Under the pieces are notes generated by a model. The model did not search any database. It saw only the letters and a program-made list of their open reading frames with translations, and was not told the origin of the DNA. Positions 4,350-34,439 of a stretch of DNA of 64,000 nucleotides are shown piece by piece. Position 1 is the stretch's first letter, and the number at the start of each line of letters is the position of its first letter. Source of the DNA: Gordonia jinghuaiqii (GTDB lineage: Bacteria; Actinomycetota; Actinomycetes; Mycobacteriales; Mycobacteriaceae); the NCBI RefSeq assembly GCF_014041935.1, contig NZ_CP059491.1, forward strand, positions 2,480,001-2,544,000, in the 5' to 3' direction. Both the position numbers and the translations under genes were made by a program.

Positions 4350-5204
4350 GTGGCAGCCATCGAGGACATTCTCCAGGTCGAGCAGATCGAAACCGACATC
4401 TACCGTGGCGGCGCGTTTCCCAGTCTCCTGCAACGCACCTTCGGGGGGCAGGTCGCCGGTCAGTCGCTGATGTCGGCGACCCGCACGGTGTCGGAGGAGT
4501 TCGACGTCCACTCCCTGCACGGATACTTCCTGCGACCGGGCAACCCGGACCGGCCCGCGGTGTTCCTCGTCGACCGCATCCGGGACGGACGGTCGTTCGT
4601 CACCCGGCGGGTGACCGGAATCCAGAACGGCGAGGCCATCTTCACGATGTCGGCGTCGTTCCACGTCCGCACCGATGAGGGTCTCGAACACCAGGACCGC
4701 ATGCCCCCGGTGCCGCAACCCGGCGAACTCAACGACCGCCTCGACAACCTCGCCGAGGAGGAACAGGTGGTCTTCAAGGAATGGCGCAACTTCGATCTGC
4801 GCATCGTGCCGCCCGAGATGCTGGTCACCTCACCGTATTTCGCCGCCCAGCAGCGTGTCTGGTTCCGGTACCGCCACAGCTTGCCCGAGGACACCGTCTT
4901 CCACGTCGGCACGCTGGCCTACATGAGCGACATGACCCTGCTCGGGTCGTCGCGGGTGCCGCATCCCGACGCCGAGGCCCAGACCGCCTCCCTCGACCAC
5001 GCCATGTGGTTCATGCGGCCGTTCCGCGTCGACGAATGGCTGCTCTACGACCAGACGTCCCCCTCGGCCGGCGCGGGGCGGGCACTGACGCAGGGCCGCA
5101 TCTTCGATCTCCAGGGGCGCCTGGTCGCCGCCGTGACGCAGGAGGGCCTGGCCCGGACCGGGCGTGCCCTGCCTGCCGATCAGCACGCCCGGACCGATCG
5201 GTGA
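4350..5204 (+). CDS. tesB: Acyl-CoA thioesterase II
   Basis: 284 residues, normal length for TesB. The protein is a double hot-dog enzyme that hydrolyses medium and long acyl-CoA to free fatty acid and CoA. N-terminal hot dog: [20 protein letters not shown], then [12 protein letters not shown]. The C-terminal catalytic triad equivalents are Asp216 (SLDHAMWFM), Ser237/Ser239 (SPSAGAG) and Gln264 (VTQEGL). The GTG start has no Shine-Dalgarno but follows a -10-like box. The stop overlaps the pdxT start (GTGA). Its place between pdxS and pdxT is conserved in mycobacteria, with no known metabolic reason. Confidence 0.93.
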
Positions 5205-5821
5205 GCGGCGCGCGACGACCACGGATCGGCGTTCTGGCACTCCAGGGCGACGTCCGCGAGCATGTGCACGCCCTCGAGGCCAGCGGAGCCGACGCTCGCC
5301 CCATCCGCCGGCCGGCCGAACTCGACGAGATCGACGGCATCGTCATCCCCGGTGGCGAGTCGACGACGATGAGCAAGCTGCTGGGCATCTTCGAGCTGTA
5401 CGACCCGCTCGCGGAGAAGTTGTCCGACGGCCTGCCCGCGTACGGGTCGTGCGCCGGGATGATCATGCTGGCATCGACCATCCTGGACACGCGGCCCGAT
5501 GCCCGGCACCTCGACGCGCTCGACATCACGGTGCGCCGCAACGCTTTCGGACGTCAGGTCGAGAGCTTCGAGACGGATCTGGAGTTCGCCGGAATCACCG
5601 ACGCCGACGACGCCGACCCGATGCGTGCGGTCTTCATCCGCGCGCCGTGGGTGGAATCGGTCGCGCCAGGGGTCGAGGTTCTCGCGCGTGTTCCCGAAGG
5701 TCCGGCGCGGGGACGCATCGTCGCGGTACGACAGGGTGACGTACTCGCCACGTCGTTTCACCCGGAAGTGACCGGGGACAGACGCGTACATGAATACTTC
5801 GTGGAGATGGTGCGTCGGTAG
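5201..5821 (+). CDS. pdxT: Pyridoxal 5'-phosphate synthase glutaminase subunit PdxT
   Basis: 206 residues. Class I glutamine amidotransferase that feeds ammonia to PdxS. The oxyanion strand is [14 protein letters not shown], the nucleophile is Cys84 in YGSCAGM, and His187/Glu189 in SFHPEVTGD complete the triad. The GTG start at 5201 overlaps the tesB stop; the frame is open further upstream only because it is a shadow of tesB. The C-terminal HEYFVEMV is typical of the family. Confidence 0.95.
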
Positions 5822-5852
5822 GATCGTGCCGACACAGACGTAGAAACGCGCT

Positions 5853-5868
5853 CCCGACACGAGTCGGG
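5853..5868 (+). promoter_or_regulatory. Perfect hairpin in the pdxT-yebC gap
   Basis: CCCGAC-ACGA-GTCGGG forms a 6-bp GC-rich stem with a 4-nt loop, 32 nt after pdxT. There is no T-run, so it may be a weak terminator or an mRNA-end stabiliser. The same 136-bp gap holds a second perfect palindrome, CCCGGCGCCGGG at 5930-5941, before the yebC Shine-Dalgarno. Confidence 0.35.
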
Positions 5869-5957
5869 GGTAACCGACCTCAAGAGGTATCAGGAGCGCC
5901 GGATGCGGGCCGCGGGCCCCGTCGCACGTCCCGGCGCCGGGAAAGGAATCGACGGAC

Positions 5958-25926: not shown

Positions 25927-28900
25927 ATGACGATCAAGGTTGCCCTCGAACATCGGACGAGCTACTCCTTCGACCGGCCGACCAAGATCTATCCGCATGT
26001 GGTCCGGCTGCGTCCGGCACCGCACTCGCGTACCCCGATCGAGGCGTACTCGCTGACCGTCGAGCCGGGTGATCACTTTCTCAACTGGCAGCAGGACGCC
26101 TTCAGCAATTACCAGGCGCGCCTGGTGTTTCCGGAGCCGTCGAGCACTCTGAGCATCACCGTCAGCCTGGTTGCCGACCTCACCGCGATCAACCCCTTCG
26201 ACTTCTTCATCGAGGACTGGGCCGAGGACTACGGGTTCACCTATCCGGAGCAACTGCGCCGCGACCTCGAGATCTTCCTACGTCCGGCCGGTGTCGCCGA
26301 AGGTGAGTTCGCGGGTGCGCCTGTGCATCCCGCGATCGCGAAGTTCGCCGCCGAGCACAAGCCGGTGGGCCGCACGCGGGTGATCGACTTCCTGGTCGCG
26401 CTGAACGCGGCGGTGCGCGACGCCGTCGGCTACACCGTGCGGCTCGAGGCGGGCGTGCAGTCCCCGGAGTACACGCTCTCCAGTGCCATCGGCTCGTGCC
26501 GCGACTCCGCCTGGCTGCTCGTCGCCCTGTTGCGTGAACTCGGGCTCGCCGCCCGATTCGTGTCCGGGTACCTTGTGCAGCTCACCTCCGACATCAAATC
26601 CCTGGACGGTCCGTCGGGTCCCGATGCCGACTTCACCGATCTGCACGCGTGGACCGAGGTCTACCTGCCCGGCGCCGGTTGGGTCGGCATGGATCCCACC
26701 TCCGGTCTCTTCGCGGGGGAGGGGCACATCCCGCTGGCCGCCACCCCGCATCCCGTCGGCGCCGCGCCGATCACCGGGGCGACCGGACCCTGTCACGCGA
26801 CCCTGGATTTCTCCAACACGGTCACCCGGTTCCACGAGGACCCGCGCGTCACCCTTCCCTACACCGCGGAGCAGTGGGACCGGGTCAACGATCTCGGTGC
26901 CCTGGTGGACAAGCGGATGGCCGACAACGACGTGCGCCTGACGATGGGCGGCGAGCCGACCTTCGTCTCCGTCGACAACCAGACCGATCCGGAATGGCTG
27001 ACCGCCGCCGACGGACCCCACAAGCGGCTGCTGGCCTCCCGGCTGGCCGAACGCCTGAAGCAGGCCCATGCGCCGTACGGGCTGGTCCAGCGCAGTCAGG
27101 GAAAGTGGTATCCCGGTGAGCCGTTGCCGCGCTGGCAGATGCAAGTGATGTGGCGCGACGACGGCGAGCCGATCTGGCGCGATCCGGCACTGCTCGCCGA
27201 TCCGTGGTCGACACCGGAGCAGTGCGCGGCCGCGATCGAGACCGAGACCCACGGCGCCGATCCGGCCGCCGGGGACCACAGTCCGGCCCGGGAGCTGCTC
27301 ACCGCGTTCGCCGAGACGCTCGGCCTACCTGACCGGCAGGTGATGCCCGCCTACGAGGATCCGCTCGTGCGGATGCGCGAACTGGCCGCGATGCCGCCCG
27401 GGGACCCCGGCACCGATCCGACGCTGCCCACCGCGCGTGCGTTCGCGCAGGCGGAGGTCTCGGTGGAGATCGACGGTGTCGAGGTCGACGCCGAGGAGAG
27501 CGACGACGCGGACAGCCTCGCCCCGGCGAGCGACTCGGTGACCAAACGCCGCGCGCTGGTGGCCAAGCTCGACGCCGCGGTCACCGAGCCGACCGCCTAC
27601 GTGCTCCCGCTGAGCCGTTCGGAGGATCGCGCCGACTGGCAGAGCGCCGTGTGGACCACCCGGCGCGGGCGTGTCGTCCTCACCCCCGGAACGTCGCCGG
27701 CCGGACTGCGCCTGCCGCTGAACTCGTTGTCGTGGGGACCTGCGCCGACGCTGTTCGAGGCCGACCCGTCCGCCCGTCCCGGCGCGCTGCCCGCCGATCC
27801 GGCCGCGGCACTGGGCTACACCGTGCGCGAGGTCGACCCGACCGAGTTCCTGCCCCGCACCGCACTCGTCGCCGAGGTTCGTGGCGGCGTGCTGTACGTG
27901 TTCATGCCGCCGACGTCGACGCTCGAGGAGTTCCTCGCCGTCATCGAGCTCGTCGAGGGGGCGGCGGCGGCGACCTCGACGCCCGTGGTCATCGAGGGTT
28001 ACGGGCCACCGGCCGACCCGCGACTGACCTCGCTGTCGGTGACCCCCGACCCGGGTGTCATCGAGGTCAACATCCAGCCGACCGCAGGCTTCGCCGAGCA
28101 GTCCGAACTGCTCGAATCCCTCTACGACCACGCCCGGGCGGTCCGGCTGGGCACCGAGAGCTTCGACCTCGACGGCAGTCACGGCGGCACCGGCGGCGGC
28201 AACCACATCACGCTGGGCGGCACCACCCCGGCCGACTCGCCGATGCTGCGCCGGCCCGACCTACTCGTGTCGATGCTGACCTACTGGCAGCGGCACCCCG
28301 CGTTGTCGTACCTGTTCTCCGGTCGCTTCATCGGAACCACCTCGCAGGCGCCGCGCGCCGACGAGGGGCGTGAGTCGGCCCTCTACGAACTCGAGATCGC
28401 CTTCGCCGAGATCGACCGGCTCGCGGTGACGAGCGACAGCGGTGACACGGCGCCGCCCAATCCGTGGGTCACCGACCGCGCCCTGCGGCACCTGCTCACC
28501 GACATCACCGGCAACACCCACCGGGCCGAGTTCTGCATCGACAAGCTCTACAGTCCGGACTCGGTCCGCGGGCGGCTCGGGCTGCTGGAGTTGCGTGCCT
28601 TCGAGATGCCGCCGCACCACCGGATGGCGATGGTGCAGTCGCTGCTGGTCCGGAGCCTGGTCTCCTGGTTCTGGGAGGAGCCCTATCGGGCGCGGCTGAT
28701 CCGCCACGGCGCGGACCTGCACGGCAAGCATCTGTTGCCGCACTACGTGATCTCCGACATCGCCCTCGTCGCCGAGGACCTCCGCGAGGCCGGCTATCCG
28801 TTCGAGACCGCATGGCTCGACCCGTTCACCGAGTTCCGTTTCCCGCGACTGGGCACCGTGCAGATCCGCGACCAGGAGATCGAGCTCCGCAGCGCCATCG

Positions 28901-29415
28901 AGCCGTGGAACACGCTGGGGGAGGAGTCGACGGGCACCGGCACCGCCCGCTACGTCGACTCCTCGGTCGAGCGCGTGCAGGTGCGGGTGCTCGGTGGCGA
29001 GGACGATCGATACCTGTTGACCTGCAACGGTTTCCCGATTCCGCTGCGCTCGACCGGACGCACCGGGGAGCGGGTCGCGGGGATACGCTTCCGGGCCTGG
29101 CAACCGCCGAGCTCGCTGCACCCGACGATCACCATCGACACCCCGCTGACCTTCGACCTCGTCGACACCGTCAACGGCCGGTCCGTCGGCGGTGCGACCT
29201 ATCACGTCGTCCACCCGGGTGGCCGCGCCTATGATCGGCCGCCGGTGAACGCCGTGGAGGCCGAGTCTCGTCGCAACGGACGGTTCGAGGCGACCGGCCA
29301 CACCACCGGCGCCGTCGACATCGGCCTACTCCGCGAACGGCAGGCCAGACAGGCCGTCGATTTCGGGGTCCCCGGCATCCTCGATCTGCGGCGGGCACGT
29401 ACAGTTCTGCGGTGA
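25927..29415 (+). CDS. Transglutaminase-like / DUF2126 putative amidoligase fusion protein
   Basis: 1162 residues, similar in size to mycobacterial Rv2566. Residues about 1-80 are a transglutaminase N-terminal region (KVALEHRTSYSFDRPTKI). The transglutaminase core follows with Cys191 (GSCRDSAW), His240 (DLHAWTEV) and Asp256 (GMDPTSG), a complete triad. From about 337 (LTMGGEPTFVSVDNQ) to near the end is the DUF2126 region, listed in Pfam as a putative amidoligase, interrupted by an acidic linker about 510-540. No signal peptide, so a cytoplasmic role is likely. Start ATG has GGGAGG upstream. Its TGA overlaps the next gene by 4 bp. Substrate unknown. Confidence 0.88.
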   Translation: MTIKVALEHRTSYSFDRPTKIYPHVVRLRPAPHSRTPIEAYSLTVEPGDHFLNWQQDAFSNYQARLVFPEPSSTLSITVSLVADLTAINPFDFFIEDWAEDYGFTYPEQLRRDLEIFLRPAGVAEGEFAGAPVHPAIAKFAAEHKPVGRTRVIDFLVALNAAVRDAVGYTVRLEAGVQSPEYTLSSAIGSCRDSAWLLVALLRELGLAARFVSGYLVQLTSDIKSLDGPSGPDADFTDLHAWTEVYLPGAGWVGMDPTSGLFAGEGHIPLAATPHPVGAAPITGATGPCHATLDFSNTVTRFHEDPRVTLPYTAEQWDRVNDLGALVDKRMADNDVRLTMGGEPTFVSVDNQTDPEWLTAADGPHKRLLASRLAERLKQAHAPYGLVQRSQGKWYPGEPLPRWQMQVMWRDDGEPIWRDPALLADPWSTPEQCAAAIETETHGADPAAGDHSPARELLTAFAETLGLPDRQVMPAYEDPLVRMRELAAMPPGDPGTDPTLPTARAFAQAEVSVEIDGVEVDAEESDDADSLAPASDSVTKRRALVAKLDAAVTEPTAYVLPLSRSEDRADWQSAVWTTRRGRVVLTPGTSPAGLRLPLNSLSWGPAPTLFEADPSARPGALPADPAAALGYTVREVDPTEFLPRTALVAEVRGGVLYVFMPPTSTLEEFLAVIELVEGAAAATSTPVVIEGYGPPADPRLTSLSVTPDPGVIEVNIQPTAGFAEQSELLESLYDHARAVRLGTESFDLDGSHGGTGGGNHITLGGTTPADSPMLRRPDLLVSMLTYWQRHPALSYLFSGRFIGTTSQAPRADEGRESALYELEIAFAEIDRLAVTSDSGDTAPPNPWVTDRALRHLLTDITGNTHRAEFCIDKLYSPDSVRGRLGLLELRAFEMPPHHRMAMVQSLLVRSLVSWFWEEPYRARLIRHGADLHGKHLLPHYVISDIALVAEDLREAGYPFETAWLDPFTEFRFPRLGTVQIRDQEIELRSAIEPWNTLGEESTGTGTARYVDSSVERVQVRVLGGEDDRYLLTCNGFPIPLRSTGRTGERVAGIRFRAWQPPSSLHPTITIDTPLTFDLVDTVNGRSVGGATYHVVHPGGRAYDRPPVNAVEAESRRNGRFEATGHTTGAVDIGLLRERQARQAVDFGVPGILDLRRARTVLR

Positions 29416-32150
29416 CCTCTTCGCCGGGCAACGCTTCCGCGGTGTTCGATCGCTACCGTGCCGAGGGGTACACGCTCTTCGACATGGACCGGCTCGGCGA
29501 GACCGGCCTCGGCGCCGACGCGCCGCCCGTCCACTACGACGAGTTGCTGGACTCCACGGGAGCGGTTCGTCCCGCGTGGGAGGACCTGGCCAGGATCTAC
29601 GCGCTGCGCGGCAGCGATCGTCTCCGTGAGTCCGCCGCGCGTCTGGCCGCGTCGGTCAGCGACGACGGAGTGGTCTACAACGAGTTCGACGGCAGCTCGA
29701 CCGTCACCCGCGACTGGGATGTCGATGCGGTGCCGCTCGTCGTCGACGGCGTCGAATGGGCTGCGCTGGAGAAGGCCATCACCCAGCGGTCGATGCTTCT
29801 CGATCTTCTGCTGCGCGACCTGTACCGCGACCAGAAGACCATCACCTCCGGGCTGGTCGCCCCCGAAATGGTCTTCGGGCACCCCGGTTACATCCGCAAG
29901 GCCGCGCGGTTGGAGGTGGCCGGTCCGCACGCGCTGTTCCTGCACGCGGTGGACGTCTCGCGCCTCGCCGGCGGTGGTTTCGTCGCCTACGGCGACCGCA
30001 CCCAGGCGCCGTCGGGCGTCGGCTATGCGATCGTCGGCCGCCGGCTGATGTCGAAGACCTTCCCGCAACTGTTCCAGGCGTGCGCGCCCCGTCCGATGGC
30101 CAACTTCGCGGCCACCATGCGGCTGGCGCTCACCGAGTACGCGCCGCCCGGCGTCGACGACCCGACCGTGGCCGTCCTCAGCCCGGGCAGCATGTCCGAG
30201 ACCGCGTTCGACCAGGCCTACCTGGCGTCGGTTCTCGGTTATCCGCTGGTCGAGGGCGCCGACCTGACCGTCCGTGACGGCGCGGTCTACATGCGCTCGC
30301 TCGGACGCTACAAACGTGTCGACGTCCTGCTGCGCCGCGTCGACGCCGCCTACACCGATCCGCTCGATCTGCGTACCGACTCCCAGCTCGGGGTTGCGGG
30401 CCTGGTCGAGTCGATCTCGCGCGGCAACGTCACGGTCCTCAACACTCTCGGTTCGGGCGTGCTGGAGAACCCGGCCTTGCACACAGTGCTGGAGCGGCTC
30501 GCGCCGGTCCTGCTCGGCGAGGACCTGCTACTCGGCTCGGTCACCACCTACTGGGCCGGAGACACGTTGCAGCGCAGCAAGATCCGCGCCAACCTCGGGT
30601 CCCTTGTGCTCACCAACACCCGCACCGACGAGGAGTTCGTCGGCCCGCTGCTCGACGCGGCCACGCGTGCCGATCTCGCCGCCCGGGTGGAGGCGCAGAC
30701 GTGGCAGTGGGTGGGCCGCGAGCTCGAGGCCTTTTCGGTGGCCCCGACCATCACCCCGGGCGCCGCGCCCGGCCGGAACGGACGCGTGCTGCGTGCCGCG
30801 CCGGTGTCGGTGCGCGCGTTCAGCGTCGCGCAGGGACCGACCTACTCGGTCATGCCCGGCGGGCTCGGCGCCGTCCTGGCCGACGGGGTCGAGGGAGCCG
30901 CCCACCACGTGATCGCGGCCAAGGACGTGTGGGTGACCAGCACCGAGGTCGGCGGGCATGTGTCCCGCCGGTCGGAGACGCGTAACGAGCCCGAGCCGCT
31001 CGTTGCGATCGCGGCCGGACGCCCGGCGCCGCGCGAGTACTCCGAGGTCGCGGCCGCGGCGAGCCCGCGTGTGCTGGCCGACCTGTACTGGCTGGGCCGC
31101 TACGGCGAGCGCACCGAGCTGGTGACCCGGCTCGCGAAGGTCTCCCGGGAGCGCTACCAGGACTTCCAGTACCGGCCGTGGATGTCGGGGATCTCCGCCA
31201 TCCCGCTGCTGCTGCACGCGGTCGCCTCGGTGACCGGCACCGCGGGCTACCTCGACACCGCCGGTCTGCTGGTGTCGGGAACCGACCGGCCACCCTCACC
31301 CGATGAGGTCAACGGCGCCATCGAGAAGATCGCCGAACTCACCGTTGCGCGTACGGTGCCGGGCACGATCGCCTACTCGGTCGACCGTCTCGTCGCGGCT
31401 GCCCGTGCGGTCCGTGACCAGATGTCGACGAGTACGTGGATGGTGCTGGCGCCGGTGGAGCGCGTCGTCGCGAACACCGCACGACTCGTCGCCCGGTCGC
31501 GCGCCGAGTCGGGGCCCGAGGGCCTCGGGGACGCCGCACTCGACCTCGGTCCCGACCTGGCCCGTGCGCACGAGGAGGTCCTGCACGGGGTCCTGGCCCT
31601 CACCGGCCTGCAGGCGGAGTCGATGGTCCACGACGCGGGCTGGATGTTCATGGACCTCGGTCGCCGGATCGAACGCGCCATCACCCTGGCCGACCTCACC
31701 CAGGTGATGTTCGCCGATGCGCGGGACATCGACGTCGAACAGGCACTGCTCGAGTCGTTCCTCGCCGCCAACGAGTCGTCGGTGATCTACCGCCGCCGCA
31801 ATCGGGGTCTGTACCGGCTCGCCAGCGTCGTCGAGTTGTTGCTGTTCGACCCGACCAACCCGCGGTCGATGATCTTCTCGCTCGAACAGATCCACACCGA
31901 CCTGGTCTCGGTGCCCGAGACCCTGCGGTCGGCCGGCGCCGAGCGCGCGGTCCAGGACATGATCGCCGACCTGCGTCGCAGCGACCCGGCTGACCTGGTC
32001 GGAATCGACGCATCGGGTCGTCGTGCCGATCTGGCCGAGCTGATGATCACGCTGCGGGCCGGCGCGCGCGAGCTGTCGGAACTGCTGACCAGGACCCGCT
32101 TCGCCGTGCCCCGGCAGGCGCAGCCGATCTGGGGCGGTGGTGAATCGTGA
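29412..32150 (+). CDS. Circularly permuted ATP-grasp / alpha-E domain fusion protein
   Basis: 912 residues, equivalent to mycobacterial Rv2567. Residues about 1-510 form the circularly permuted ATP-grasp (DUF404/DUF407) part: YRAEGYTLFDMDRLGETGL, VVYNEFDGSSTVTRDWDVDA, DLYRDQKTI, GHPGYIRKA and SVTTYWAGD. Residues about 545-895 are the helical alpha-E (DUF403) part: VLADLYWLGRYGERTELVTR, WMFMDLGRRIERAI, NESSVIYRRRNRGLY. In many bacteria these are separate neighbouring genes; here they are fused. Such proteins are predicted, from comparative genomics, to form amide bonds in a peptide-synthesis or tagging system, but activity is unproven. GTG start overlaps the upstream stop. Confidence 0.88.
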   Translation: MTSSPGNASAVFDRYRAEGYTLFDMDRLGETGLGADAPPVHYDELLDSTGAVRPAWEDLARIYALRGSDRLRESAARLAASVSDDGVVYNEFDGSSTVTRDWDVDAVPLVVDGVEWAALEKAITQRSMLLDLLLRDLYRDQKTITSGLVAPEMVFGHPGYIRKAARLEVAGPHALFLHAVDVSRLAGGGFVAYGDRTQAPSGVGYAIVGRRLMSKTFPQLFQACAPRPMANFAATMRLALTEYAPPGVDDPTVAVLSPGSMSETAFDQAYLASVLGYPLVEGADLTVRDGAVYMRSLGRYKRVDVLLRRVDAAYTDPLDLRTDSQLGVAGLVESISRGNVTVLNTLGSGVLENPALHTVLERLAPVLLGEDLLLGSVTTYWAGDTLQRSKIRANLGSLVLTNTRTDEEFVGPLLDAATRADLAARVEAQTWQWVGRELEAFSVAPTITPGAAPGRNGRVLRAAPVSVRAFSVAQGPTYSVMPGGLGAVLADGVEGAAHHVIAAKDVWVTSTEVGGHVSRRSETRNEPEPLVAIAAGRPAPREYSEVAAAASPRVLADLYWLGRYGERTELVTRLAKVSRERYQDFQYRPWMSGISAIPLLLHAVASVTGTAGYLDTAGLLVSGTDRPPSPDEVNGAIEKIAELTVARTVPGTIAYSVDRLVAAARAVRDQMSTSTWMVLAPVERVVANTARLVARSRAESGPEGLGDAALDLGPDLARAHEEVLHGVLALTGLQAESMVHDAGWMFMDLGRRIERAITLADLTQVMFADARDIDVEQALLESFLAANESSVIYRRRNRGLYRLASVVELLLFDPTNPRSMIFSLEQIHTDLVSVPETLRSAGAERAVQDMIADLRRSDPADLVGIDASGRRADLAELMITLRAGARELSELLTRTRFAVPRQAQPIWGGGES

Positions 32151-33052
32151 GCTCGCGCATCTACCGGGTGATGCACCGGACCAGCTACACCTACGACGAC
32201 GACGTGTCCTCCTCGTACGGTCGTTGCCACCTGACGCCTCGCGACCTGCCGGGGCAGCGGGTCCGCTCGACGTCGGTGCACATCGAACCCGAGCCCGACG
32301 ACCGTTCGACCGGCATCGACGTGTACGGCAACAACGACAGCTACTTCCACGTGCGCACCCCCCACCGCGAACTCACCGTGACGGCACGCTCGGTGGTCGA
32401 GGTGGACCCCATCGACCAGGGCGTGCTCCTCGGATCCGCGGCCCGCGCCCCCTGGGAATCGGCGCGCCCGGCGGTGGTGGGCACCGGCGACGCCGCCTTG
32501 GCCGCCGAGTTCGTCCTGGATCTGGACCCGCCGGAGATCACCCCCGCGGTCCGGGCCTACGCCGACGAGGTGTTCACCCCGGGGCGGCCACTGATCGAGG
32601 CCGTCACCGACCTCACCACGCGCATCTTCGGCGACTTCACCTACCGGTCGGGTTCCACGGCCATCTCCACGCGGGTCGACGCCGTGATGGACCGGCGCGA
32701 AGGCGTGTGCCAGGACTTCGCGCGCGTGGCGATCGCCTGCCTACGCTCGGTCGGACTCGCCGCGCGCTACGAGTCGGGGTACCTCGCGACCGACCCGCCA
32801 CCGGGCAAGGAGAAGATCTTCGGCGCCGACGCGAGCCATGCCTGGGCCGCGGTGTGGATGCCCGACGGCCGGTGGCTCGCCTTCGACCCGACAAACGACA
32901 AGCTGGTCGACGAGCGCCACGTCACGCTCGCCTGGGGACGCGACTACGACGACGTCCCACCTCTGCGCGGCGTCATCTACACCGACTCCAAGAAGAGTCA
33001 CATCGACGTCTCGGTCGACGTCAGCCCCGTCGACGCGCCCGGCGAGGCCTGA
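32147..33052 (+). CDS. Transglutaminase-like cysteine peptidase-fold protein
   Basis: 301 residues, equivalent to mycobacterial Rv2569c. The N-terminal transglutaminase-associated region (IYRVMHRTSYTYDDDVSSSY) is followed by the papain-like core with the triad Cys188 (REGVCQDFA), His231 (ASHAWAAV) and Asp247 (AFDPTND). No signal peptide or TM. GTG overlaps the stop of the ATP-grasp gene by 4 bp, so the three genes 25927-33052 are one operon. It may hydrolyse or transfer the amide made by the ATP-grasp and amidoligase parts; that is inference from context. Confidence 0.9.
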   Translation: MSSRIYRVMHRTSYTYDDDVSSSYGRCHLTPRDLPGQRVRSTSVHIEPEPDDRSTGIDVYGNNDSYFHVRTPHRELTVTARSVVEVDPIDQGVLLGSAARAPWESARPAVVGTGDAALAAEFVLDLDPPEITPAVRAYADEVFTPGRPLIEAVTDLTTRIFGDFTYRSGSTAISTRVDAVMDRREGVCQDFARVAIACLRSVGLAARYESGYLATDPPPGKEKIFGADASHAWAAVWMPDGRWLAFDPTNDKLVDERHVTLAWGRDYDDVPPLRGVIYTDSKKSHIDVSVDVSPVDAPGEA

Positions 33053-33200
33053 ACCCGTCCCCATTTGTCGTTCGCGAAACAAAAGTGTTGCGGCGCAGCG
33101 TGTTCGGTGACGCTTATGATAATTTGCCAACCGCAAGGTCCTACAGATGGATGAACACTGCTGTTGCCACCAGGTTGCAACAGGTACCTTGGGGGACGAC
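33053..33200 (+). promoter_or_regulatory. AT-richer intergenic region with promoter and two dyads
   Basis: This 148-bp gap is visibly richer in A/T than its surroundings. It holds a -10 candidate TATGAT (33115-33120), a dyad centred on TTCGCGAA (33071-33078) and an inverted repeat CTGTTGC (33161-33167) / GCAACAG (33177-33183). It probably drives the following phosphotransferase-like gene; the dyads may be operator or leader hairpin. Confidence 0.45.
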
Positions 33201-34439
33201 ATGACGGTCATAACAGAAAGCCGCATCATCAGCGTGGTGCGGGCGGCAGAGGCGCTGCTGTCACAACGCGCCGGGTCCCCAGTCGTCCTCGATGATCCAG
33301 AGAACCTCGGTGGGAGCGGACGCACGACGGTGGTGCGGGTACGGGTCGCCCAGAACCCGCTCAGCCTCGATCGCTCACTGGTCATCAAGGCACTGCCCGA
33401 ACACGAGGACCCCCAGGCATTCCACCGCGAGATCGCGTCGTACAAGTACGCCACCGCGCTGCCCAACGAGTCGCGTCCGGGCCCGCAGCTGATCGCCTCG
33501 GCCCCGGAACTGCGCATCATGGTGCTCTCCGACCTCGGACACGGTCGTTCGATGCTCGAATACCTCGCCGGCACCGACCCCGTCGAGACCGCACGCGCGG
33601 TGAGTGCGTGGGGTCAGGCGCTGGGCCGGATGCATGCGGCCACCGTCGGCGGCGAAGGTGATTTCCTCGCCCTGGTGCGCCGGGGGCCCTCGGGCACCCA
33701 GGGACGCGACATCCTGCGCGACGAGGCCCTTCGCTCGATCGATTCGGTCGCCGGTCACGGTGAGTCGCTCGGCGTCGAGGTACCCGCTCATGTGATCGAT
33801 GCCCTGCGCGGCGCCGCCACCCTGTTCGACGAGGGCGAACACCGCGCGTTCAGTCCCTCCGACGTCGGACCGGAGAACATCCTCCTCAACGACGACGGCG
33901 TCCAGTTCATGGACTATGAGTGGGGCAGTTTCCGCGACGCCACCCTCGACATCGCATACGCGCTGGTCACGATCACCGCGCAGCTCCCGGCCCGGTCGTC
34001 GGACCGCGTGACCGACCTCGAGGTGTCGATGGTCGACGCGTGGCGGTCGGAGGTGCTCTCGATCTGGCCCGCACTCGCGCACGAGCGGGAGATGCAGCGC
34101 AAGGTGCTGATGGCGCGGTTCCTGTGGGTGTGGCTGTCGACGGCATGGATGCTGCCCGGCGAGTCGGACTCGTCCCCCCTCGACAGCGCCGCCCTCGACA
34201 CCGCAGGTTTCGACACCGCAGGTTTCGACACCGCAGGTTTCGACAACTCGGGTTTCGACAACGCGGGTTTCGAGAACGCGGGCTTCACCCACGACTGGGC
34301 TCTGCACACCAACGACCCGCGTGTGATCGTGAGCCGCTGGACCGATCTCGCGGCTGCCGCCGGGCGCGCCGGGGACGACGAGATCGCCGCCTTCGCGTCC
34401 TCGATGGGGCTCGCTCTGCAACGCAACTGGCTGGCCTGA
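33201..34439 (+). CDS. Aminoglycoside phosphotransferase/choline-kinase-fold protein with pentapeptide-like insert
   Basis: 412 residues from ATG 33201, chosen for GGGGGAC upstream; ATG 33147 in frame is less likely. The fold shows as ALVIKALP-type Lys63, [14 protein letters not shown], and the Brenner-like loop [12 protein letters not shown] with Asp221 and Asn226 but Ser in place of the usual His, then FMDYEW with Asp238 for Mg. Between 326 and 360 lie seven 5-residue units ([15 protein letters not shown] and similar) encoded by 15-bp DNA repeats, inserted after a Trp-rich helix. Small-molecule kinase activity is likely but the substrate is unknown. It may belong functionally to the upstream peptide-ligase operon, though it has its own promoter region. 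Confidence 0.75.
34176..34280 (+). repeat. Seven in-frame 15-bp tandem repeats
   Basis: Units of the form GGTTTCGACACCGCA, two of them identical (34206-34220, 34221-34235), then diverging to GGTTTCGACAACTCG, GGTTTCGACAACGCG and GGTTTCGAGAACGCG; the first two units start CCCCTCGAC and GCCCTCGAC. They encode Phe/Leu-Asp-Thr/Asn-Ala-Gly pentads within the phosphotransferase-like protein. Confidence 0.9.

Follow-up and report, generated by a model that had tools for sequence, protein, structure and literature searches.

How many of its proteins can form an amide bond is the question raised by a three-gene operon of Gordonia jinghuaiqii, which lies in the 64,000-nucleotide stretch that we analysed (hereafter the window; NCBI RefSeq assembly GCF_014041935.1, contig NZ_CP059491.1, positions 2,480,001 to 2,544,000). 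A sequence-only reading of the window had seen two potential amide-forming modules in the operon, a DUF2126 putative amidoligase and a circularly permuted (CP) ATP-grasp fused to an alpha-E domain, together with two papain-fold enzymes. Our analysis indicates that the fused ATP-grasp lacks the canonical ATP/Mg residues and is probably a pseudoenzyme, and it points to DUF2126 as the candidate catalytic ligase. The operon is laid out as follows.

25927..29415, + strand: gene 1, 1162 amino acids; transglutaminase (about residues 6-257) and DUF2126 putative amidoligase (about residues 288-1155)
29412..29415, + strand: stop/start overlap of genes 1 and 2, 4 bp, GTGA
29412..32150, + strand: gene 2, 912 amino acids, GTG start; CP ATP-grasp (108-487) and alpha-E (552-895), probable pseudo-ligase
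32147..32150, + strand: stop/start overlap of genes 2 and 3, 4 bp, GTGA
32147..33052, + strand: gene 3, 301 amino acids, GTG start; stand-alone transglutaminase-like protein

Both overlaps were confirmed from the open reading frames and the proposed domain make-up by Pfam, with matches to Bact_transglu_N, Transglut_core and DUF2126 in gene 1 (DUF2126 at 1142 bits, positions 2-826 of 826, i.e. full-length), to CP_ATPgrasp_2 (residues 108-487, 391 bits; CP_ATPgrasp_1, 318 bits) and Alpha-E (residues 552-895, 203 bits, profile positions 3-292 of 294) in gene 2, and to Bact_transglu_N and Transglut_core in gene 3. The overlaps had been taken to mean that the three genes must act together; on their own they are no proof of this, but the arrangement is conserved and recurs across loci. 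Among the 80 best DUF2126 loci (L021-L100) of at least 592 matching stretches in the genome collection, 53 hold both genes, and 50 of these have the fused ATP-grasp gene 3' of DUF2126 and on its strand. DUF2126 is widespread, these stretches having been matched with two patterns and not being equal to genes.

The operon type is already known. Mycobacterium tuberculosis Rv2566 was named in 2008, in a passage of Iyer et al. (PMC2588565), as a transglutaminase fused to a domain of the carboxylate-amine ligase superfamily, placed there by profile searches and suggested to form peptides; gene 1 shares with it the N-terminal transglutaminase-ligase fusion and the predicted peptide-forming role. What we add here, as judged from alignments, is that the fused ATP-grasp lacks the canonical ATP/Mg residues. 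A literature search, outside which lies the main comparative study (Iyer et al. 2009), found no mention of an inactive, pseudo- or degenerate ATP-grasp, no assigned product for DUF2126 and no mention of the term DUF2126.

Canonical ATP and magnesium residues of the fused ATP-grasp

The same genome (5.18 Mb, one contig) holds a second operon at 3.46 Mb, about 0.95 Mb from the window operon, in which a stand-alone ATP-grasp, an alpha-E protein and a transglutaminase are encoded by genes that also overlap by 4 bp; we refer to ATP-grasps of this kind as split. Both ATP-grasps of the genome were aligned with relatives (14 sequences), and ten ATP/Mg positions were scored in a main alignment of complete domains, 60 fused and 37 split, each with more than 80% coverage; a split domain was counted only if an alpha-E gene lay within 300 bases of it. 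Eleven rows were left out, namely the copies from the window genome (L001, L002, L006), three loci with alpha-E outside the fetched stretch (L007-L009) and five partial domains. Gene 2 of the window retains none of the ten residues and its 60 fused relatives retain between 0 and 3, whereas all ten are present in 37 of 37 split paralogues; the split ATP-grasp of the window genome likewise keeps the canonical Mg/ATP residues. As the ten positions were chosen after viewing the 14-sequence alignment, a Mann-Whitney comparison of fused and split proteins is partly circular and we do not rely on it. An unbiased count over the 80 columns invariant in split proteins gave 23 that are kept in fewer than 20% of the fused proteins and 36 that are kept in at least 80%. 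The former include E232, N234, D390-D391-K392, two loop glycines, D499 and N531-S532-S533-Q534; many of the latter are Gly, Pro or Leu, and R347, R501, K539, D540 and W542 are also among them.

In ATP-grasp enzymes the E-x-N motif probably supplies metal ligands, and a lysine and a glycine-rich loop would hold the nucleotide. All 37 split proteins keep E-x-N, the lysine, the GG-x-G loop, the Asp of HVDLRPF and NSSQ. In the fused clade, the Glu of E-x-N is kept in 1 of 60 proteins and the Asn in none (37/37 for both in split proteins; Gly and Arg in the window), the Asp of HVDLRPF is kept in 0 of 60, the loop glycines persist in only 3%, 25% and 3%, and DDK and NSSQ are almost entirely lost. 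The only significant match of the gene 2 ATP-grasp among PDB sequences was 3n6x (E 6e-58), a putative glutathionylspermidine synthase with a CP_ATPgrasp domain; although the two are sequence relatives, 3n6x has EDN, SGGYG, HVDLRPF and NSSQGGG and the window protein is without them. A short and non-significant hhalign alignment, our one line of support for metal binding by E-x-N, places D219, E232 and N234 of the split clade on D318, E330 and N332 of E. coli Gss, which we take to be metal-binding residues; nothing was found when the fused clade was compared by hhalign with the single E. coli Gss sequence.

In a tree of the 97 domains built by a quick method, the fused and split proteins fall on opposite sides of a branch with an SH-aLRT of 100, so that on sequence they form separate clades. 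Williamsia maris is the sister of the window protein in this tree, and among the matches listed it is also the closest relative over gene 1 (73% identity in the best segment). The sequence-only reading had itself named a lack of Mg/ATP residues as telling against its proposal, and at the level of sequence they are absent from the fused ATP-grasp. We consider the fused ATP-grasp-alpha-E protein a probable pseudoenzyme, and on these alignments the claim of two active ligases in the operon is not supported and should for now be dropped.

Two side observations concern fused proteins elsewhere. Long frames in genomes of the window's phylum (G031:C1:3625281-3626072, G113:C1:3215085-3215897 and G123:C33:25658-26416) match only the first 260-270 or so positions of CP_ATPgrasp_2 and are possibly fused forms that have lost the second half of the domain. 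A DUF2126 operon also occurs on a metagenome-assembled genome (MAG) contig titled Helicobacter pylori PMSS1 (L061), a title that is probably wrong; the fused protein of this operon groups with the one from an Aliarcobacter MAG.

Split paralogues in genomes with DUF2126

We compared 48 DUF2126 genomes, hand-picked from the 80 loci nearest the window, counting ATP-grasps by eye from frame length and score. A split-type CP ATP-grasp is present in 48/48 and the long fused form in 44/48, the four genomes without it being those of L054, L064, L076 and L088. The residues of the split form were checked in 30 genomes, with 10/10 scored residues, and in five more; the other 13 assignments rest on score and length. 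Of the fetched loci of these genomes, 15 hold both forms, 22 only the fused one, seven only the split one and four neither.

DUF2126 was found in 6 of 149 genomes of the phylum of the window. CP_ATPgrasp_2 exceeds the cut-off in 6/6 of these versus 30/143 of the others (Fisher 1.4e-4), and the zinc peptidase family Peptidase_Mx does so in 6/6 versus 1/143 (Fisher 5e-10); both values ignore shared ancestry, three of the six genomes belonging to one genus. In the loci of Caballeronia (L016) and Burkholderia (L017), split ATP-grasp and alpha-E, DUF2126, the fused protein and a transglutaminase lie in one cluster, which suggests one joint system. A putative zinc-binding metallopeptidase is annotated in the Caballeronia cluster.

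A set of split ATP-grasp, alpha-E, transglutaminase and the proteasome-family protein Anbu is discussed in passages of PMC6376114 and PMC5666114. The same ATP-grasp, alpha-E and transglutaminase families occur in our operon, and the set at 3.46 Mb in the window genome is of this kind, though without Anbu beside it; the Anbu operon differs in that its ATP-grasp and alpha-E are separate genes and that, as described there, its four genes do not include DUF2126. The split ATP-grasp of the Yersinia Anbu operon is described as releasing phosphate from ATP, an activity that neither glutamate nor glutamine stimulated (PMC6376114).

DUF2126, the transglutaminases, the peptidases and the setting

In DUF2126, residues E343, E398, H752, H760, R866, D872, E888 and R890 are identical in 45/45 aligned rows from several phyla, and K393 is kept in at least 90% of them. 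When the DUF2126 profile was compared with GCS2 proteins by hhalign, a colinear alignment over 187 columns was obtained with a score of 27.6, P of 0.024 and a probability of only 2%, in which the GNHITLGG and ELRAFEMP segments are placed on GCS2 HVHVGIS and EVRVCDGM. This weak likeness to glutamine-synthetase/GCS2-type ligases exceeds the nulls (maximum 23.3 for 30 column-shuffled profiles, 16.8 for the reversed profile) yet is far from hhalign significance, and the amidoligase fold therefore stays a published claim that our data support weakly. Comparison with single GCS2 and single PafA proteins (hhalign) gave nothing. DUF2126 is much larger than GCS2 or PafA and has no significant profile match to either; the PafA/Pup system differs further in that the passage of PMC2588565 on Rv2566-family neighbourhoods reports no Pup-like small gene there. 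Peptide or amide chemistry, as the sequence-only reading proposed, holds up as the best general guess.

Both transglutaminase triads are complete, as had been predicted: C191/H240/D256 in gene 1 and C188/H231/D247 in gene 3 were confirmed by alignment. The Cys-His-Asp (CHD) triad is found in 93/93 rows of DUF2126-fused transglutaminases (about 90 distinct genes, three having been fetched twice) and in 71/74 stand-alone rows, the three exceptions being one row that does not cover the site, one CHC and one SHD. None of the three operon proteins has an evident membrane-like segment (maximum 19-residue Kyte-Doolittle mean 1.44). Rv2569c is, we presume, the transglutaminase of the M. tuberculosis version of the operon. 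Its description as an extracellular serine protease, in a passage of a 2024 paper (PMC11081392), looks odd given the CHD triad in 71/74 of the stand-alone family and a window copy without a membrane-like segment. Two papers were set aside, PMC12096838, whose relevant passage concerns an inactive transglutaminase fused to membrane helices, and the RloB/RloC paper, which deals with a different operon of an ATP-grasp and an inactive transglutaminase.

The earlier suggestion of a ligate-and-trim cycle fits with recurrent peptidase neighbours. In a comparison of 88 loci (L013-L100), in which a single member per cluster was run against Pfam, two kinds of extra neighbour were commonest at DUF2126 loci: a Peptidase_Mx cluster (12/88, at a median of 13 bp from a core gene) and a cluster of the proteasome family that we read as Anbu (11/88, median 36 bp). 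The window genome has a single Peptidase_Mx, at 3.376 Mb, far from the operon; Anbu was found neither in the 64-kb window nor in 16 kb around the split operon, which is thus unlike the Anbu operon in this respect (tblastn with one Anbu from L054, E 0.01), and the same query recovered two copies from the A. caldus locus L014, which served as control. Over the 48 genomes, Peptidase_Mx exceeds the cut-off in 18 (16 strong) and Anbu is present in 15 (two at only 28-30% identity), whereas 18 lack both Anbu and a strong match to Peptidase_Mx; neither kind of peptidase, nor the two taken together, therefore accompanies DUF2126 everywhere. Both occur together in only one of the 48, the MAG G150, in which three of four Anbu matches hold a TGA stop. 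That the two peptidases replace each other is only suggestive (P 0.007 overall, 0.063 outside Actinomycetota). The passage of PMC2588565 on Rv2566 mentions neither a loss of the ATP site in a fused protein, nor the 48/48 coupling to a split form, nor a coupling to Peptidase_Mx.

A gene of the Peptidase_Mx cluster adjoins the operon genes in the mycobacterial DUF2126 loci L029, L028, L022 and L025. In A. caldus L014 there are two Anbu-like genes (1566-2288 and 5199-5945) near glnL/ntrC, one of them annotated only as hypothetical, and the transglutaminase and DUF2126 parts are in separate frames.

The operon is flanked by aspS on one side and by a kinase-like gene, rarA and alaS on the other, as read from their translations. 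This aspS-alaS neighbourhood presumably also holds in M. tuberculosis. The kinase-like gene directly 3' of the operon (33147-34439, + strand) has weak matches to choline/thiamine kinases, and its product has, at about residues 353-380 of 430, some six repeats of five residues each, of the [10 protein letters not shown] type. The same gene order is annotated in a record of Tsukamurella tyrosinosolvens 'plasmid 21' (L013, 5923-9305), which carries aspS, alaS, a fused ATP-grasp-alpha-E and a transglutaminase but has a DUF389 gene in the place expected for DUF2126; this record is probably a mislabelled piece of chromosome. A scan for promoters and terminators gave nothing above chance.

Role of the operon and competing explanations

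Because the residue loss is confined to the fused clade, the coupling extends across phyla, peptidases are neighbours, the triads are intact and the DUF2126 residues are invariant, we give an even chance to the operon being a DUF2126-centred accessory module in a system that is dispersed over the genome, ATP-dependent and probably cytosolic and that ligates and trims a peptide (amide). DUF2126 would be the catalytic ligase, using ATP to make an acyl phosphate that is then joined to an amine by glutamine-synthetase/GCS-type chemistry. The fused ATP-grasp-alpha-E would be a pseudoenzyme that holds the substrate or product or scaffolds a complex, perhaps as a partner of the active ATP-grasp and the alpha-E of the split operon, some 0.95 Mb away. 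Transfer or hydrolysis of the amide would fall to the two Cys-His-Asp papain-fold domains, and a peptidase would trim the product, Peptidase_Mx at a third place in this genome and Anbu in other bacteria. A broader proposal, which we advance tentatively, is that the fused clade of many phyla is a conserved pseudoenzyme derived from an active-ligase paralogue, its ATP site having been lost once, and that it would serve as the non-catalytic link between the DUF2126 ligase-transglutaminase, the active split ATP-grasp, alpha-E and a dedicated peptidase (Peptidase_Mx or Anbu) in one multi-site machine for building and trimming peptides.

Several points weigh against the operon being such a module. 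The similarity between DUF2126 and GCS2 is weak and non-significant, hhalign gave no alignment of DUF2126 to PafA/Dop profiles from the window genome, and the DUF2126 profile gave only chance-level matches to PDB sequences (E 0.57 or worse). Some ligand binding may remain in the fused protein, since 45/60 fused proteins retain the Lys (the window has Thr) and 52/60, the window's among them, retain Asp219. The motif assignment rests on the alignment with 3n6x, the short, non-significant alignment of the split clade with Gss and general ATP-grasp chemistry, and in an hhalign comparison of the fused clade with a small Gss alignment the motif region failed to align. The co-occurrence counts are phylogenetically non-independent and the 48 genomes were hand-picked from loci nearest the window. 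For the related Anbu operon, pull-downs described in PMC6376114, in which Anbu was the bait, detected no specific interaction among the encoded proteins.

The system might instead be a nitrogen-limitation pathway for scavenging or storage, and not protein tagging, a reading that we consider unlikely without being far-fetched; it concerns purpose and is compatible with the accessory-module mechanism. Passages of PMC8050072 report that the proteasome-like PP_2685 and the ATP-grasp PP_2688 of Pseudomonas putida are up on nitrate versus ammonium (log2 4.4 and 4.0), the A. caldus DUF2126 locus is within 6 kb of glnL/ntrC, and the domains are described as correlating with urea metabolism in marine metagenomes (in part of PMC3597751). 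However, the P. putida regulation concerns a Pseudomonas operon with an Anbu gene, and no regulatory evidence was found for the window operon between aspS and alaS. By analogy with this related operon, and with the hints from A. caldus and the metagenomes, nitrogen limitation appears to be the best physiological lead.

It is improbable, in our view, that DUF2126 is a GCS/Pup-ligase-like enzyme working mainly in reverse, hydrolysing or de-ligating amides as Dop does, with the operon as a removal module and the split operon as the builder. Another ligase would be at hand in every one of the 48 genomes, both papain-fold domains can hydrolyse and peptidases recur as neighbours, but nothing in the sequence bears on the direction of catalysis and the failure to align with the PafA/Dop profiles counts against this explanation too.

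We find little reason to expect that the fused ATP-grasp is active through a reconstructed nucleotide site, such as one around its own D-R-T-Q-A-P-S-G motif. This segment is conserved in the fused clade, which also keeps invariant or nearly invariant residues such as R308/R309, D316 and K504/D505/W507. However, the window protein has a shortened glycine-rich loop and its Lys (now Thr), Glu and Asn are all replaced, while across the clade the Asn has become Arg or Trp in 56/60 and the Glu has mostly given way to Ala, Ser or Gly, residues that do not usually serve as metal ligands. That DUF2126 and the fused ATP-grasp are both active, giving two amide-forming steps, is the most doubtful explanation, for although gene 2 scores well above the Pfam cut-offs for ATP-grasp and the related Yersinia enzyme acts on ATP, the latter comes from an operon with separate ATP-grasp and alpha-E genes, and the fused clade is nearly without E-x-N, the glycine-rich loop, DDK, the Asp of HVDLRPF and NSSQ.

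Should one of the two presumed ligases be dead, this would change which protein to assay and would name partners elsewhere, namely the split ATP-grasp, alpha-E and the peptidase. As these partners are encoded elsewhere in the genome, an assay of the operon alone could fail.

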